Shown here: in pieces, positions 8,182 through 27,841 of the stretch
How the letters are laid out: each line of letters starts with the position of its first letter
How positions within the stretch are numbered: the first letter of the stretch is position 1
From: a virus
IMG/VR virus record: IMGVR_UViG_3300009762_000002
Coordinates: 1-33,733 of that record
Length of the DNA stretch: 33,733 bases
Reading direction: 5' to 3' (one strand)
Made by a program: the position numbers and the translations under genes
Notes under the pieces: model-generated
What the model saw: the letters and a program-made list of their open reading frames with translations, nothing else
Database searches by the model: none
Told to the model about the DNA's origin: nothing

Positions 8182-8538
8182 ATGAAAGCGATAACAATAA
8201 AAAACCCTTGGGCATATCTAATATGCTCGGGACAGAAAGATGTCGAGAATCGATCGTGGCGGACTTCTTTCCGAGGGCGCATACTCATACACTCTGCGGC
8301 GGGCATCGATAAACGCGATTTTGTTCCTCGCATTATTTGTCCCTCACCGTGCTCTGCAATCATCGGCTCTATTGAAATAGTAGACTGCATACAGGGTAGT
8401 GCAAGCGAATGGGCCATGTCGGGATATTGGCACTGGGTACTACGTAAGCCCGAGTTATTTGTGCATCCGATCCTAGACATTCGCGGGGCTCTCTCGTTTT
8501 GGGACATACCGGAAGGAATATGTATTCCGATTAGCTGA
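8182..8538 (+). CDS. ASCH-domain protein
   Basis: A 118-residue protein with the ASCH/PUA-like signature: KNPWAYLICSGQKDVENRSW at residues 7-26, then RGRILIHSAAG (32-42), a central acidic strand (AIIGSIEIVDC) and a C-terminal strand region (IRGALSFWDIP). ASCH domains are PUA-related beta-barrels thought to bind RNA or modified bases; some have nuclease or amidohydrolase activity. It is the only gene facing plus. It has a consensus promoter but no ribosome binding site, so the mRNA is probably leaderless. Its last 66 bases overlap the 3' end of the ABC-GNAT gene tail to tail, so the two transcripts are antisense to each other. Confidence 0.85.
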   Translation: MKAITIKNPWAYLICSGQKDVENRSWRTSFRGRILIHSAAGIDKRDFVPRIICPSPCSAIIGSIEIVDCIQGSASEWAMSGYWHWVLRKPELFVHPILDIRGALSFWDIPEGICIPIS

Positions 8539-9555
8539 CAATGTTTTGTTAAGCGTTTTTATTCCAGCGTTAGGTGCGATTCTTCCTGCTCGTATTAGCT
8601 GCCAGTTCTTATTCCGCATCATTGATTTAGCGAACCCATTTAGGCTCGTAGTAATACCGAAGTATTCTTTTTTGTTTACATAGTCATCGCCTATTAATTC
8701 CATCATTCGAGAAGCTATTCCTATTCCTTGATAGTCTGGCAATACTACAACCCGATGTATTTTCCGCATGGGTGAAATATCGGGATGGGGAAAGTTAATG
8801 ACCGCGCAAAAGGCTATAGGTTTATCATTTATAAATGCCACAAACTCGTGCGATGCCTTACTTATATCGTGGCTTAAATAGTGATAACGCCGAAACATTT
8901 CCCAGTATCCCTTAATCTCTCGTACTTCGATACTAATTTTCGGCCGACGAACCGACCCCCTTGTAATTTGCATTTCCATCGTATCAGTATTAAATACCCA
9001 GTCCGGTTCTAGCCATTCTATTACATCATAGTGACAAGTGACTGCTATAAACTTCTTATTAGATCTGCGGACGCTTTTCTGTAGCGCAAGACTCCCTATC
9101 TGCGCTACTTCTCTATCAACTACAGAAGTATATTCATCGAATATTATTATCTCTTGCTTTTGTAAAATAGCTCTCGCCAAATCAACCCGCATTTTTTCGC
9201 CATTTGAAAGTACGCCGTATGGTTTAAGCCATGACGGAGGAGAGGCAAAGCCAACCGATGAAAGAACGCCGAAAAGCTCTGTACTCGGTATGCTTTTATC
9301 AAAGTCATCCACTACACACGCGGCAGAATATTCAAAGTCTGCGAAGTATTCTCCGAATAGTTCTCTTGCTATCGTTGTTTTTCCAGTGCCAGATTTGCCA
9401 ACGATAACGCCTATATTCCAAAAATCGGGCGGTTCTATATCTCCGATGAAACATTCATCAAACTTGTTTTCATTAAGATCGAATTGATCGTATAATTGGG
9501 CAACGCGGAAAGATTTAGTGCCTATTTCGTTATGTTTTATAATGTTAAACTTCAT
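8473..9555 (-). CDS. ABC ATPase fused to GNAT acetyltransferase (COG2401-like)
   Basis: 360 residues in two parts. Residues about 1-200 are an ABC-type ATPase: Walker A GKSGTGKTT (53-61), a signature-like LSNGEKMR (116-123), Walker B IIIFDEYT (136-143) and the H-loop histidine in AVTCHYD (175). There is no membrane domain, so it is a soluble ABC protein. Residues about 205-330 are a GNAT domain with the acetyl-CoA loop in VVVLPDYQGIGIASRM (269-284). This matches the ABC-ATPase/acetyltransferase fusion of COG2401, whose function is unknown. It follows the TerS-like, ParB-like and GIY-YIG genes. A DNA-modifying GNAT, by analogy with the Mom protein of phage Mu, is one speculative role. Confidence 0.85.
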   Translation of the reverse strand: MKFNIIKHNEIGTKSFRVAQLYDQFDLNENKFDECFIGDIEPPDFWNIGVIVGKSGTGKTTIARELFGEYFADFEYSAACVVDDFDKSIPSTELFGVLSSVGFASPPSWLKPYGVLSNGEKMRVDLARAILQKQEIIIFDEYTSVVDREVAQIGSLALQKSVRRSNKKFIAVTCHYDVIEWLEPDWVFNTDTMEMQITRGSVRRPKISIEVREIKGYWEMFRRYHYLSHDISKASHEFVAFINDKPIAFCAVINFPHPDISPMRKIHRVVVLPDYQGIGIASRMMELIGDDYVNKKEYFGITTSLNGFAKSMMRNKNWQLIRAGRIAPNAGIKTLNKTLSANRNTYSFRYVPKRESPANV

Positions 9556-10075
9556 GTGTAATACCCATCTCTAACCATATTCTTTTATTGTTTATTAGTT
9601 TCCATGTCATACCCTTCTTAGACTTGGGTAAATGAAGATTGCTTTTCTGGGAAATGCTCATTTTTTGTTTAGTTTCTTTGGAATGCTTAAACCCAAGATG
9701 CCCTTTATTGCCTATGGCGGATTGTCTCATTTTTTCTCTAGATTCATTGCACGGTATGCCAGCACCGCCGCCGCTTTCTAAATTATACCCATCTTGAACA
9801 GAATTATAGTATTCAATCCAATATATTTCCTTTACATCAAGATCATGTCTGTCTTTGGCATAATCTATAATTTCCCAGACAAAGCAATTTTCGCCATATT
9901 TACGGATAGCGGCATGAAACTTGTCTTTATTTGCATTTTTATTAGCATAATATTCGTGTTGCGACTTTCTACTACTCAATGAAACAACGGTTTGACCTAT
10001 ATATGTTTTACCGTTGGTAACATTGCTACATTTGTATACAATTCCATATTCCCCTAAAGTGTTGAAATGCGGCAT
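9545..10075 (-). CDS. GIY-YIG homing endonuclease with NUMOD3 repeats
   Basis: 176 residues. The nuclease domain (about 10-95) has GIVYKCSNVTNGKTYIGQT (residues 11-29, with the YIG element at 25-27), the helix arginine in SSRKSQH (R36), and the metal-binding region YWIEYYNSVQDGYNLESGGG. The C-terminal part carries NUMOD3-type DNA-binding motifs (SREKMRQSAIGNKG and HSKETKQKMSISQK), which is typical of free-standing phage homing endonucleases. It overlaps the ParB-like gene by 22 bases and the ABC-GNAT gene by 11, so it has inserted at a gene junction without breaking either one. Its A/K/N-rich composition looks different from its neighbours and suggests recent gain. Confidence 0.92.
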   Translation of the reverse strand: MPHFNTLGEYGIVYKCSNVTNGKTYIGQTVVSLSSRKSQHEYYANKNANKDKFHAAIRKYGENCFVWEIIDYAKDRHDLDVKEIYWIEYYNSVQDGYNLESGGGAGIPCNESREKMRQSAIGNKGHLGFKHSKETKQKMSISQKSNLHLPKSKKGMTWKLINNKRIWLEMGITHEV

Positions 10076-15354: not shown

Positions 15355-15576
15355 TCAATCTTTTGGCAAGTGATAATCGTTTTCTAAATCACCTAGTTCA
15401 TTTCGTATCGTTTCTATAGCCTCGTCAATCGTCTTGAATGTATGCCCATATTTTAGATACCTTCGCAATACTTCCTTTATTTCAGCGAGCGCCAAAGAAT
15501 ACCCTAGCGCATGGGAATAAAGTTCCATCGTTTCGTTATCGTAGGCATAAAATACGGCTATCGGCTTATCATCCAT
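15355..15576 (-). CDS. 73-residue hypothetical protein
   Basis: ATG shares a base with the RNA ligase stop (TAATG), so it is co-translated with the ligase. It is acidic and helical in the middle (ALAEIKEVLRRYLKYGHTFK) after a strand (KPIAVFYAYDNETMELYSH). No motif is recognised. Being the ligase's direct partner, it may share its function, but this is positional inference. Confidence 0.68.
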   Translation of the reverse strand: MDDKPIAVFYAYDNETMELYSHALGYSLALAEIKEVLRRYLKYGHTFKTIDEAIETIRNELGDLENDYHLPKD

Positions 15577-16658
15577 TATATTAACCCGTCGTAATCACAA
15601 GAATTAAACTTAGCCCACGTTTCCTTTTCTTTCCCGTCGTACCATGTGAAGCAATACTTTCGCATTTTCTCATGCACCGTTGACATAACCCACAATGCAA
15701 AATCCTTTCTTCCGTCCATCTTTTTGCTTGTAACGGTTACTAATGTCTTATTTAGATAATCAAGCGACTCAATATAGCGAGCGCGGATTTTATCAAAATG
15801 ATCCTTGTACTCAGGGAAGTAATCGACAAACTCCGAATCATTTCCCGAGCGTATAAGCTCCAACACTCTATCCGGGTTTACGCTTCCGTTATTCTTAATA
15901 TGATGCGCTTGCAAGTAGGCTAAAGATTTAACCTTAACCCGATTCCATTTACTATCGACTACTACATACCCCTCGCGATCAAACGGAAGCTCGGCTGTCG
16001 TTTTTACCATATCTTCCCATGACGCAAAATCATACTTGCACGGTTTCCGTATTCCAATATCCTCATCAAACTCTAGCCCGGTTAAATTATCCCTCGCGCC
16101 GATATGATATATTCCAGTCTCTTTGTACGGTACAACCACGCGATTCCATGGCGAAACAAGCTCGAAAATCCATGTAGTATTAGCCCTTAGTTTATTATAA
16201 TCCAGGCCCGAATTACTAGCCGCAAGAGTAAATAAATCGTAGTACGTTTCTAGCCCAACTTGCGGAATCTGCGACCCGGCATTATGGGAATCGATTACGC
16301 CATTAGTGGATATATGCCAAGCCCCGTCATCGAACCATACCTTTATTATAGACCCGTCAATTTTCTCTTGAATCCTCGCCGTATTCCAATCTACTGAATG
16401 CGCGTTAGGTTCATTGTAGTTGAAAAACTTATCGAAGGCATGACACACTGTTATTGGATCGCCAGATTCGCAATCCCTTAGAATAATACCGCGACAGACT
16501 TGCACTATCGGAAGTTTGAAATCTGAGTCAATTTGATTATAACTAAACAAAGTATATGGCCCATCATCTTTTATAGATATACAATAAGGCTTAGCTGAAA
16601 GCTCGGCCCGCCATTCCTTGTTATTGCGTATGTAGTCTACCAAAATGTTCAATGCCAT
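15576..16658 (-). CDS. T4 Rnl1-like RNA ligase
   Basis: 360 residues with the nucleotidyltransferase motifs in order: an upstream CRGIIL (residues 55-60) with the FDKFFNYNE segment after it, motif I EKIDGSIIKV with the adenylated lysine K99, motif III WIFELV (163-168), motif IV DREGYVV (227-233) and motif V VKVKS (241-245), then a helical C-terminal domain of about 110 residues. The enzyme joins 5'-phosphate to 3'-hydroxyl RNA ends using ATP; T4 Rnl1 repairs tRNA cut by host anticodon nucleases. It begins 23 bases downstream of the terminator of a tRNA-like RNA gene, which makes that RNA or a host tRNA a candidate substrate. ATG 16656-16658 has GGGGG upstream. Confidence 0.92.
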   Translation of the reverse strand: MALNILVDYIRNNKEWRAELSAKPYCISIKDDGPYTLFSYNQIDSDFKLPIVQVCRGIILRDCESGDPITVCHAFDKFFNYNEPNAHSVDWNTARIQEKIDGSIIKVWFDDGAWHISTNGVIDSHNAGSQIPQVGLETYYDLFTLAASNSGLDYNKLRANTTWIFELVSPWNRVVVPYKETGIYHIGARDNLTGLEFDEDIGIRKPCKYDFASWEDMVKTTAELPFDREGYVVVDSKWNRVKVKSLAYLQAHHIKNNGSVNPDRVLELIRSGNDSEFVDYFPEYKDHFDKIRARYIESLDYLNKTLVTVTSKKMDGRKDFALWVMSTVHEKMRKYCFTWYDGKEKETWAKFNSCDYDGLI

Positions 16659-18883: not shown

Positions 18884-21134
18884 TCACGGCCTTACTAAAA
18901 AGATCATTATTGTTTTGCTTTAGCTCAAACTCTGCCTTATCTAAGTTGTCAACCATCTGCTTAAAATACTCGGGTTTCAATTCTCCAAGAATAGCATATC
19001 TGCCATCAATAATGGCTTTGTACCCCTCCGATCCAATTCCGCCAAACGGAGAATAAACCTTTTCACCCTTGTTTGAATAAAGTCTAACAATGATATCAAT
19101 AACATCCAATTGGAGTGGGCAAACATGGCGCTCGTCTTCATCATATTTAATCGTGTTGAGAGTATAAGTCTCTCTGACATGGGAAAGAATGCCCGATGCT
19201 ATGTCTATCCATTCATCGCGAGTTACGTCCGATCCGTCAAAGTCGCCATTCTTAATTCTTTGTTCTGGTTCTCCCGGCTTACGAAATATCTCAACATAAT
19301 CCAGAAGCGCTGGCCGAGACCATGACGAATCTTTCTCAAATTGTGTAAATGTGAGCCCCTTAGAATGTGTGCGGATACTCTGTGCTTGCGGATTCTTGGG
19401 AATTACAAACTCGCCATGATAAACGAATCCGGCCTTTGAAAAGTGCTCGATGATATCTCCCCGAAAATCCTTAACCCCGATATAGCCATCCTTGTTTAGC
19501 AGTGCCGGGACTTGCATACAATGGACAGCGCAAAGACGACCTGTCTTTATAACCCGGAATAATTCAGGGATAAGGAACATAAAATGAGTCCAGAACTCCT
19601 CGTCATTAAGTGAGTTCCCCATATCGCGCATCGAAGGAGAATATGTGTAAAGAGAAAAAAATGGCGGAGAAAAAATAGATAAGTCTACCGACTCATCATC
19701 AAGTGTCTTAATCGTCTCGCAAGAATCGCCTTCCATTGCCGTATAGTGCTCGCCCTTAACTGTATTCACTTCCATTTTATCCTCATACCTCATTGTCCCT
19801 GTTTGGATTTCGTCTTTCGTAAAATCAGACATTTCTTTAACGACACCATCTATTAACTCTGCATTTTCTTTTTCCTTGCGCATAACATTAGCTAATATCC
19901 CCTGCTCCGCATTCGATAAAACTATCTTTACATTCACTGGATACTTTTGCCCGAATCGATATTCTCTTCGTATGAGCTGATAATAAAGCTCGAATGAATC
20001 ATTAAGGCCCACCATTGCCATATTGTGAGCATTTTGGAAATTCATTCCGAACCCGGCGATCTTTCCTTTTGTGTCAAGCACCTTTATTTTGCCATGCTTA
20101 AAATTATTCATTGACTCAATTTTGAACTCTATCGAATCCTTTCCGCAAACATTAACTGCGCCGTCTATTTTTTTTGCAATTAAATTGGCCTCATCGTCTA
20201 ACCCCGCCCATATAATCCATTGATCCGAAGACGCATTAACGATAGGCGCTATCGCATTAACTCGGCTCTCGATTGTCTTTCTTCGTTCATCAATACGCCC
20301 TGTTAGTCCTTTTACTTTATCGACTGGGAATAATTCGCCATCAGGGATAAACTCAGCATCGGTATAAATCGCATCAATACTAAGCGGTGGAAGCTCGAAC
20401 CCTTCATCTGAGAATCCGATATCAGATGGATGCCTAATAAAAACGCACCATGAGGCCATCCAACGATAAAAGTCTGACTTGGCATGTCCCTTAAGTCGCC
20501 ACCCCGATCCTTTAGCAGAATCATTGACAAAAAACTTTGACAGCATTTCGCTAGCAGACATGATACCAAGAAACTCGACCTGATTAGACATTTCTGAAAT
20601 GTCATTCGGCGATGGCGTGGCCGTGCATGAAAGACGAAAAGGAACATCATGAAACATAGCGAGAATGCGATTTTTAGTTCTTCCGTTTTCGGACTTAAGA
20701 ATAGATGACTCATCAAGTACAACTGCGCCGAATTGTGACGCATCAAAATGATCTAGACGCTCGTAATTAGTTATGAACAATCCTTGCGGGTCATCGGTAC
20801 ATTGGCCTTGATCGGTTACATATTTAATAGATATATCTATCTCTTCGGCTTCGCCTATGGTCTGTTCGGCGATAGATAGTGGGCAAACAATAATACCTCG
20901 TGTTCCATTGTGAGCGCAAATTATTCTAAGCCATTCGACCTGTTGCTTAGATTTTCCTAATCCGCAGTCCTCAAACAGTGCGGCCCGCCCCTTGCGTACT
21001 GCCCACTTTACTATTGCCGCCTCATATGCCCATTTGCCTTCGCGTAACATTGGGTGAATCGATTCAAGTGGGTAATCAAATCCACAATCATAATCTATTT
21101 CTGTTTTCTTTTTTAGAAACTCCCCGTAATCCAC
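18876..21134 (-). CDS. SNF2-type helicase fused to DNA methyltransferase
   Basis: 752 residues, two enzymes in one chain. Residues 1-460 are an SNF2-like ATPase: FEDCGLGKSKQQ (Walker A, K61), VVLDESS (138-144, motif II), TATPSPND (171-178, motif III), GFGMNFQNAH (361-370, motif V) and YYQLIRREYRFGQ (384-396, motif VI). Residues 460-752 are an amino-methyltransferase: catalytic SPPF (489-492) and a SAM-binding FGGIGSEG loop (697-704), with the loop after the catalytic motif, as in beta-class enzymes. The fusion may couple translocation to methylation or antirestriction. Such helicase/methylase fusions occur in other phages. The GTG start (21132-21134) has GGAGGG just upstream. Confidence 0.88.
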   Translation of the reverse strand: MDYGEFLKKKTEIDYDCGFDYPLESIHPMLREGKWAYEAAIVKWAVRKGRAALFEDCGLGKSKQQVEWLRIICAHNGTRGIIVCPLSIAEQTIGEAEEIDISIKYVTDQGQCTDDPQGLFITNYERLDHFDASQFGAVVLDESSILKSENGRTKNRILAMFHDVPFRLSCTATPSPNDISEMSNQVEFLGIMSASEMLSKFFVNDSAKGSGWRLKGHAKSDFYRWMASWCVFIRHPSDIGFSDEGFELPPLSIDAIYTDAEFIPDGELFPVDKVKGLTGRIDERRKTIESRVNAIAPIVNASSDQWIIWAGLDDEANLIAKKIDGAVNVCGKDSIEFKIESMNNFKHGKIKVLDTKGKIAGFGMNFQNAHNMAMVGLNDSFELYYQLIRREYRFGQKYPVNVKIVLSNAEQGILANVMRKEKENAELIDGVVKEMSDFTKDEIQTGTMRYEDKMEVNTVKGEHYTAMEGDSCETIKTLDDESVDLSIFSPPFFSLYTYSPSMRDMGNSLNDEEFWTHFMFLIPELFRVIKTGRLCAVHCMQVPALLNKDGYIGVKDFRGDIIEHFSKAGFVYHGEFVIPKNPQAQSIRTHSKGLTFTQFEKDSSWSRPALLDYVEIFRKPGEPEQRIKNGDFDGSDVTRDEWIDIASGILSHVRETYTLNTIKYDEDERHVCPLQLDVIDIIVRLYSNKGEKVYSPFGGIGSEGYKAIIDGRYAILGELKPEYFKQMVDNLDKAEFELKQNNNDLFSKAVNE

Positions 21135-21148
21135 TTGCCCTCCCTTTA

Positions 21149-21172
21149 CAAAAATAGCGGGCTTTCACCGCC
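21149..21172 (-). terminator. weak terminator of the large RNA
   Basis: Minus strand: GCGG-TGAAAGC-CCGC (with an outer AG/CT pair if one base bulges) followed by TATTTTTG. The stem is short, so part of the transcription probably reads on into the helicase/methylase gene, which has no promoter of its own. Confidence 0.5.
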
Positions 21173-21660
21173 TCACCGTGTTTACGGCTTCCAGCTCCAA
21201 GGTATCCTGGAATCTTTCGCAAACATCCCCGTAGTTTACGGAGTTCGCACGTCTGCACGCTTTGTCAAAGCGTAAGGCCTGTTTCCCGGCCTCATGTTAT
21301 CCGCAACGGTATCTTAACGTGGAACTTTCTTGCGGCATCCCCACGGCCTAATGATACTTGCCCTAGGCTAGGCTTGCGGTATCCATCGGAGCGAGTACCA
21401 CGCTCATTCTATCAACCTGGATACCGCCAACATTTTACTACTTAGGCGGCACTATCGCAACCTCGCTCTATTTAATATAAGGGGTTCTGGTATCGCCTTA
21501 CATCCCGAAGGACTCGGCACCTTAAACGGGTCGCCCAACTCCGTATAATATAGCTACTCACGGGAACCACCGGCTTTTGCCTAATGTTATCACCCAATCG
21601 TAACGGCGCGCCGCCCGATTGCGTTTAGTTGTCCGCTTTCGCCATTCTTACTTTACGTAC
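21149..21660 (-). ncRNA. large ornate structured RNA (about 500 bases)
   Basis: Non-coding in all frames but dense with hairpins on the minus strand. Examples: a 9-base-pair helix 21376-21384/21419-21427 enclosing a GAGCG/CGCTC hairpin (21389-21405); a 7-base-pair hairpin ACGCTTT-GAC-AAAGCGT (21257-21273); CCGTA/TACGG (21229-21241); AGGCC/GGCCT (21275-21292); TTCCAG/CTGGAA; CAATCG/CGATTG; and a UUCG-capped stem. GATACC occurs four times (21201, 21308, 21378 and 21489 on the plus strand as GGTATC). It follows a 96-residue protein in one transcription unit and ends in a weak terminator. Size and location call to mind GOLLD, ROOL or HEARO-type large phage RNAs, but I cannot match any of them by eye. 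5' end not fixed. Confidence 0.65.
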
Positions 21661-21678
21661 TTTGAAAGGTCATCTCGA

Positions 21679-21969
21679 CTACCCCTTAACATCCGCCGCG
21701 ACAGCCTCGACTCCTGCCTTAACTTCCGTCTTGACATCGGCATCAGCCTTAGCGACAGTAGCCTCGACCGCATCGGCAGTCTTAACTACATCCGACTCAA
21801 CCGCAATGCCCTTCTTGGCAAGCGTAGCCTCAAGTGCCTCAACGCGCTTAAACAGAGTCTCGACGCCATCCTCTGCATTCTTGGCGATCTTGTGTGCGCC
21901 GATAACCTTGTCGCTAAACTCCTCCTCGATCTTTTTCCACTCACGCTCAACCGCACTAACAATACCCAT
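21679..21969 (-). CDS. 96-residue Ala-rich helical protein
   Basis: ATG at 21967-21969 (MGIVSAVEREW) has AAGGAG seven bases upstream; an earlier in-frame ATG lies in the promoter/hairpin region. The protein is one long helix: residues 1-50 charged (EREWKKIEEEFSDKVIG), then a low-complexity repeat of V/A/D/K (TVAKADADVKTEVKAGVEAV) that is a coiled coil or an apolipoprotein-like amphipathic helix. It is the only protein encoded between the strong promoter at 22019-22047 and the large RNA, so it may work with that RNA. No family is recognised. Confidence 0.72.
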   Translation of the reverse strand: MGIVSAVEREWKKIEEEFSDKVIGAHKIAKNAEDGVETLFKRVEALEATLAKKGIAVESDVVKTADAVEATVAKADADVKTEVKAGVEAVAADVKG

Positions 21970-21991: not shown

Positions 21992-22010
21992 GCCAAGGCT
22001 AGGCCTTGGC
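21992..22010 (-). promoter_or_regulatory. 5'-UTR hairpin of the 96-residue gene
   Basis: GCCAAGG-CCTAG-CCTTGGC is a perfect 7-base-pair hairpin in the leader, about 5 bases after the predicted start of transcription and followed by AGTTTTAAT. It could act as an attenuator, as a terminator for upstream transcription, or as a 5' protective cap. The loop CCTAG matches part of an 11-base motif in both RNAs. Confidence 0.65.
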
Positions 22011-22018
22011 TTATAAAC

Positions 22019-22047
22019 ACTATAGCATACTCGGTTTATTTATTCAA
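22019..22047 (-). promoter_or_regulatory. promoter TTGAAT-N17-TATAGT
   Basis: Minus-strand TTGAAT at 22042-22047 and TATAGT at 22019-22024 with 17-base spacing and TGC before the -10 (extended). It is the promoter for the 96-residue protein and the large RNA. Confidence 0.78.
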
Positions 22048-27436: not shown

Positions 27437-27468
27437 TTTACCGGCTCCCCTTTCTATCTCGGCCGCTG

Positions 27469-27576
27469 TTATGATTTGCGCACCTTCCCCAGCATTTTAG
27501 TAAACGAGTCCCATTCTTGCTCAAACGATATATACCTATCAGGCCAGTGACTACCGGGTACATTAAACTTAATCAA
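27469..27576 (-). CDS. 35-residue protein with TTG start
   Basis: The frame begins TTG at 27574-27576, overlapping the upstream TGA stop as TTGA, and reads MIKFNVPGSHWPDRYISFEQ then EWDSFTKMLGKVRKS. The frame stays open upstream to 27620 but without an ATG, so the true start may be an ATT at 27600. Content (GSHWPDRYISFEQEW) looks like a real protein. Confidence is limited by the start. Confidence 0.45.
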   Translation of the reverse strand: MIKFNVPGSHWPDRYISFEQEWDSFTKMLGKVRKS

Positions 27577-27689
27577 ATCCTTTCCATTAGTGCAAGTTGT
27601 AATCCTTTCCTTCGAGCCGCCCGATTATTGTATCTCCAATATAGGCTAGATCGCATAATCAGTGGAGGATGAAACTTGTATTTTTTCAT
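27573..27689 (-). CDS. 38-residue basic protein
   Basis: ATG at 27687-27689 with GAGGT four bases upstream, inside the stop region of the Cys-rich protein. The product MKKYKFHPPLIMRSSLYWRY and NNRAARRKGLQLALMERI is strongly basic and likely binds nucleic acid or is a small modifier. It fills a gap of a tightly packed operon. Confidence 0.55.
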   Translation of the reverse strand: MKKYKFHPPLIMRSSLYWRYNNRAARRKGLQLALMERI

Positions 27690-27691
27690 GC

Positions 27692-27841
27692 CTACCTCGG
27701 CCCCTCGGGGTCTAAATCAAAGCCATCATCGATTATATCGTATTCAGGGCAGATAGGGCAAGTGGTACACTCGGATGCATGATTGCACTTACAAGCGGAG
27801 TTGTAGGGACAAACCTGAAAAGATTGAGGTAGTTCGATCAT
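27692..27841 (-). CDS. 49-residue Cys-rich zinc-binding protein
   Basis: ATG at 27839-27841 overlaps the upstream stop as ATGA. Six cysteines in CPYNSACKCNH and CTTCPICPEY give two metal-binding pairs, and the C-terminus is acidic (DIIDDGFDLDPEGPR). A zinc-binding peptide is inferred; the partner is unknown. Confidence 0.62.
   Translation of the reverse strand: MIELPQSFQVCPYNSACKCNHASECTTCPICPEYDIIDDGFDLDPEGPR

Follow-up and report, generated by a model that had tools for sequence, protein, structure and literature searches.

A gene-free stretch of a tailed-phage genome fragment that looks like a rare new RNA, with about 95 bases in common with one other known phage

To our knowledge, no function has been established for large phage RNAs such as GOLLD and ROOL. 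Curated libraries of RNA are biased towards well-populated classes. GOLLD consists of a conserved region and a less conserved remainder, with a tRNA sometimes located within it (in a linker) or beside it, and the solved ROOL RNA is 659 nt long (PMC12286853). The element analysed here lies in a linear 33.7-kb fragment from an IMG/VR virus record (hereafter the window, meaning this whole stretch of DNA). It looks like a rare new RNA of which about 95 bases are common to one other known phage only, and it is probably a functional structured RNA of some kind.

Matches to PHROG families and protein domains identify the genes of the window as the replication and packaging set of a tailed phage, with Sak4, NinB, a replication initiation protein, a DnaC-like loader, a helicase-methyltransferase fusion, DnaB, a RuvC-like resolvase and the large terminase, encoded on the minus strand almost throughout. 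The element is surrounded by replication genes, where the sequence-only reading had placed it, and the helicase-methyltransferase gene is the next gene after it both in the window and in a related phage, L010 (IMGVR_UViG_3300037361_000007). In several more distant relatives (e.g. L004-L007), helicase and methyltransferase are encoded by two adjacent frames, compared to one fused protein of 752 aa in the window. A close relative of the window phage is absent from the phage record collection. Other genes of the window include one for a T4 RNA ligase 1-like protein (PF09511, PHROG 562; 15576-16658, minus strand), which has no match in the L010 phage and belongs to a record in which no tRNA genes were found. 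A 360-aa protein, half ABC-like ATPase and half acetyltransferase (8473-9555, minus strand), adjoins the large terminase, belongs to PHROG 11143 of unknown function and is 78% identical in the L010 phage. A free-standing GIY-YIG homing endonuclease with a NUMOD3 motif (9545-10075, minus strand) is flanked by two genes that are kept in the L010 phage, the endonuclease itself being unmatched there. Family searches on the larger proteins of the window returned no IscB/TnpB-type nuclease and no reverse transcriptase.

When minus-strand ORFs of at least 60 aa are counted, the longest gene-free gap of the window extends from 21135 to 21678 (544 nt), as had been noticed from the letters; the second-longest (27437-27837, 401 nt) has no Rfam match. 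The absence of coding potential claimed for the element was likewise confirmed. Only one minus-strand ORF of 50 aa or longer reaches into it, a GTG frame of 56 aa at 21088-21258 that overlaps the helicase gene, and six stop-to-stop pieces of 38-95 aa from the element gave no PHROG match at E<=0.1. In the absence of a plausible protein frame, and with none of the six pieces matched, a coding region was rejected as an explanation. The features of the locus are compiled in Table 1.

Table 1 Positions of the element, its predicted structures and the neighbouring features in the window.
Feature	Position	Strand	Basis or remark
Sigma-70-like promoter, putative: TTGAAT, 17 nt, TATAGT, with TG before the -10 hexamer	22019..22047	-	Consensus scan; probable transcript start
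8-bp hairpin GCCAAGGC-CTA-GCCTTGGC, presumed 5' end of the transcript	21992..22010	-	Sequence scan
Small gene ahead of the RNA, 96 aa, helical	21679..21969	-	ORF with AAGGAG Shine-Dalgarno sequence
Non-coding RNA element, outer limits (likely about 21150-21650)	21149..21678	-	ORF-free; no Rfam family; fold z -3.07
Predicted terminal helix closing the RNA, AGAAUGGCG (21648-21640) with CGCUAUUUU (21159-21151)	21151..21648	-	Pair probability 0.93
Conserved core module, possible three-way junction UUGCG/CGCAA, CCGCC/GGCGG, UAUC/GAUA, GAGCG/CGCUC	21366..21472	-	blastn, local alignment, covariance model
Alternative long helix GCGGUAUCCA/UGGAUACCGC around a nested hairpin	21376..21427	-	Incompatible with helices one and two of the junction
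Terminator-like hairpin followed by ATTTTTG, immediately ahead of the Shine-Dalgarno sequence of the next gene	21156..21172	-	Consensus scan; weak 5-bp stem
Helicase-DNA methyltransferase fusion, 752 aa	18876..21134	-	PHROG helicase and methyltransferase matches; 83% identical in L010

In comparison to dinucleotide shuffles, folding of the whole element gave z-scores of -3.07 for the minus strand and -1.23 for the plus strand. Since the former value is only modest and the element is not exceptional within the window phage, where a sample of 400-nt pieces from across the window puts it at about tenth place for relative stability, folding stability is weak evidence. Thus, the earlier characterization of the stretch as full of perfect helices was accurate as a description but did not hold statistically, neither by this rank nor by the count of perfect stems of 6 bp or longer, which is ordinary with respect to shuffles (P=0.2). 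The individual helices that had been pointed out are present on the minus strand. The one around a nested hairpin, given as 9 bp, comprises 10 perfect base pairs (21376-21385 with 21418-21427, around GAGCG/CGCTC), and a perfect stem of this length is uncommon in shuffles (P=0.015). The 7-bp hairpin with a 3-base loop reads CTCCGTA-AAC-TACGGGG (about 21229-21245), though the predicted minimum-energy fold breaks it by putting one of its arms into a long-range helix.

The motif GATACC does occur four times on the minus strand (21494, 21383, 21313 and 21206), a number reached in 0 of 2000 shuffles; this enrichment is weakened, however, because the hexamer was chosen post hoc and 11% of shuffles of the element contain some hexamer four times over. 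These repeats, the inverted repeats and the replication genes around them would all be in line with a DNA element of replication, i.e. an origin or a primosome assembly site, in place of an RNA. We consider this very improbable, as the element is GC-rich for the genome (0.48-0.53 versus 0.43 overall), the opposite of an unwinding element, the spacing of GATACC is irregular (70-111 nt), the GC skew has no local inflection at the site, the folding bias is confined to one strand, and in L010 the initiator and DnaC genes are located away from the element. An origin with iterons was rejected on account of the irregular spacing and the GC-richness.

Relatives of the element were searched for among 2.9 million viral contigs, using patterns from the element as well as helicase-based loci for which the helicase-methyltransferase protein served as bait, in collections from which the records nearest to the window's genome may be missing. 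This search yielded one true relative, located in the L010 phage, whose helicase locus is the closest one (83% identity) and has a non-coding stretch in the matching place. In the next-best helicase loci (at most 54% identity), this non-coding stretch is absent, and a covariance model of the module run over about 120 helicase loci found nothing beyond the two phages, leaving about 100 other helicase-methyltransferase loci without it. Six DNA patterns from the element gave the L010 phage as sole real match in the viral contigs. The loci L090-L093 and L123 were rejected as chance pattern matches, with apparent coding sequence where inspected, and 76 other loci from the shortest pattern reached at most 16.4 bits against the module model. 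A 24-base pattern had no match in genome contigs. A search of these contigs for relatives of the helicase, together with the module model run over about 400 bacterial genomes, yielded only three matches of 22-26 bits, which is about chance level. Using blastn, the element had no match among 50,697 phages and 72,556 plasmids, and the element of L010 as query gave tRNA-sized or chance matches only. The element is either very rare or diverged past the reach of our search patterns.

The module is conserved in sequence, position and strand across the two phages. Positions 21374-21467 are 79% identical over 94 nt to L010 4714-4804 (blastn), and the score of the local alignment is 107 at a shuffle mean of 19. 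Also in L010, the module is located upstream of the helicase-methyltransferase gene on the matching strand, and it is non-coding in either phage, so that the conserved protein frame named beforehand as an argument against an RNA was not encountered. What stands of the ornate RNA of about 500 bases proposed by the sequence-only reading is a minus-strand non-coding RNA element, but not a single conserved object, the conserved part being only about 94 nt long. Gene order is largely common to the two phages, with 64-82% identity for Sak4, NinB and others, 91% for a ParB-like protein and 82% for the terminase. With respect to the genes for the anti-repressor, replication initiation and DnaC, the helicase-methyltransferase gene comes first in L010 and last in the window; despite this altered placement, the module is located immediately before it in both phages, at a distance of 240 nt (window) and 197 nt (L010) from the helicase start, with unrelated intervening sequence.

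The conserved segment corresponds roughly to a domain closable by its own helix, for which modelling points to either the junction or the long helix of Table 1. Both phages preserve all 19 pairs proposed for the junction; one pair is changed on both sides and another goes from G-C to G-U. The long-helix fold, composed of GCGGUAUCC/GGAUACCGC and the distal hairpin that it has in common with the junction, keeps 13 of 13 pairs with the same changes, the pair of the long helix that is changed on both sides going from T-A to G-C. Both folds can form in both phages, and their predicted energies are within about 2-2.5 kcal/mol. The check for homologues and covariation suggested at the outset was thus answered in part, by one relative and, in the module, one compensatory pair and one wobble (n=2 sequences); with two sequences, shuffles of the pair letters match the observed covariation score half the time for either fold.

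Upstream of the element, the window has a promoter-like sequence that ends 8 nt before the 5' hairpin, and the corresponding pair in L010, with TTGACG-17-TACACT in the matching place, is in the same register. In the hairpin of L010 (TTGGGGC-CTA-GCTCCAA), four of the eight pairs are changed on both sides yet still paired, one pair goes from G-C to G-U, and the hairpin core GGCCTAGC occurs once per phage, each time at this site. As the alignment score of the two leaders does not reach significance (P=0.33), the case for their relatedness is built on position and hairpin pairing. Possible roles of the 5' hairpin are protection of the 5' end and termination of transcription coming from upstream, and either role suggests a transcription unit that starts there and covers both the small ORF and the RNA. 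The 96-aa protein encoded by this ORF in the window has no PHROG, no significant Pfam and no phage match, and the small gene in the matching place of L010 codes for a 56-aa protein with no similarity to it. The plan common to both phages hence comprises a promoter, a 5' hairpin, a small ORF (mutually unrelated), the RNA and the helicase gene.

That the element always precedes one particular gene would suit a role in cis equally well. A long 5' leader that controls the helicase-methyltransferase gene in cis, with the module switching between two exclusive folds, is the main rival to a trans-acting RNA, since in both known phages the element accompanies the helicase gene, even though this gene has moved relative to others; we regard it as possible but rather unlikely. 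The ends of such a leader would bring CCUUUC beside the GGAGGG ribosome-binding site, and CCUUUC (21669-21664) is predicted to pair with this Shine-Dalgarno sequence (P=0.85). The near-equal energies of the two folds in both phages would likewise suit a switch. A simple leader switch is argued against by the about 200-240 nt of unrelated and unequal sequence between module and start codon. In addition, the predicted terminal helix of L010 leaves its Shine-Dalgarno sequence uncovered, the promoter is upstream of another ORF, and the module is absent from the other examined loci of the helicase-methyltransferase family. A conserved platform at the ribosome-binding site or terminator, as looked for in a riboswitch-like element, was not found in the two sequences, in which only the module is conserved.

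Outside the module, the two elements differ in size and content. The element measures about 500 nt in the window versus about 270 nt in L010, with about 210 nt before and about 215 nt after the module in the former, and 6 nt before and about 175 nt after it in the latter, and these flanks have no significant similarity (P=0.74). A terminal helix of different sequence is predicted for L010, too, and its element gains no folding stability over shuffles (z +0.23). At its 3' end, the RNA of L010 contains a degenerate tRNA-Leu(UAG)-like sequence (L010:4901-4972, plus strand), which scores 36.9 bits with the Rfam tRNA model, has two acceptor mismatches and a short variable loop, and is rejected by ARAGORN. 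This tRNA-like domain, apparently taken up by the L010 relative, could be a tRNA remnant, a decoy or a structural domain; elsewhere, the L010 phage carries a cluster of tRNA-Gln, -Glu and -Ala. Given the module as the only conserved part, this degenerate sequence in the L010 flank and the ordinary stability of both elements, the module might be real and the remainder non-functional intergenic filler, made of decayed genes or tRNA remnants. We judge this improbable, as helices of high predicted pair probability occur in the window's flanks, along with repeats such as GATAACATKAGGC and a raised GC content, and 500 nt of filler are seldom kept in small phage genomes.

Our preferred reading, held tentatively and at slightly less than even likelihood, is a rare structured RNA of phages that acts in trans and whose body varies around a conserved core. 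We lean towards it because the module is far from the helicase start, a platform is not conserved, the promoter precedes the small ORF and the L010 element has a tRNA-like domain. Minus-strand transcription would start at the promoter about 340 nt upstream of the element, and the RNA would form the 3' part of a short unit of 5' hairpin, small ORF and RNA that may end at or near the U-rich tract before the helicase-methyltransferase gene. Functionally, the compact module of about 95 nt, which evolves more slowly than its surroundings, would be central, and the remainder would be a body that varies in size and content from phage to phage. During infection, the RNA would act in trans, like large phage RNAs with one conserved region. 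We infer transcription, the boundaries of the RNA, its folding in vivo and the action in trans from the features listed in Table 1 and their counterparts in L010. Points against this explanation are that it has two members, that the fold energy of L010 is unremarkable and that the lengths and most of the sequence differ. The more far-reaching proposal of a new class of phage non-coding RNA, in which a junction module sits in a fast-changing body able to hold tRNA-like domains and which has its own stabilised unit, acts in trans and possibly forms a multimer, is in our opinion unlikely.

A rare RNA with a definable 95-nt core, a presumed promoter and a relative with a tRNA-like domain would offer a small, tractable system for studying the function of such RNAs, and the preferred reading, if true, would suggest that there are many more near-orphan RNAs in uncultured phages. 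Rfam searches with the element and the leader, at gathering thresholds and at E<=10, gave chance matches only, in agreement with the earlier statement that the stretch could not be matched to any of the known large RNAs. Membership in GOLLD, ROOL, OLE, HEARO or the group I/II introns is unsupported because of this lack of an Rfam match, and assignment to nanocage or ribozyme/catalytic RNAs is unsupported as well. The element would resemble OLE and HEARO in being a large structured RNA, but is unmatched to them in Rfam at either threshold. Unlike group I/II introns, it lies between complete ORFs and not inside a gene; with neither a core match nor an interrupted gene, the intron reading was rejected. 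ROOL is a phage or prophage RNA of similar length class, and the element differs from it by the lacking Rfam match and by a window without tRNA genes. With respect to GOLLD, whose members are often >800 nt long and whose conserved part is a large 3' region, the element is shorter in both phages and its conserved part of about 95 nt is central. Since the Rfam test fails and size and layout differ, the element is not a member of GOLLD or ROOL. What it has in common with GOLLD is that both are phage-borne and non-coding and combine one conserved region with a variable remainder. As for the tRNAs in or beside GOLLD, the L010 element has a tRNA-like domain and its phage a tRNA cluster, and the window has no tRNA gene.
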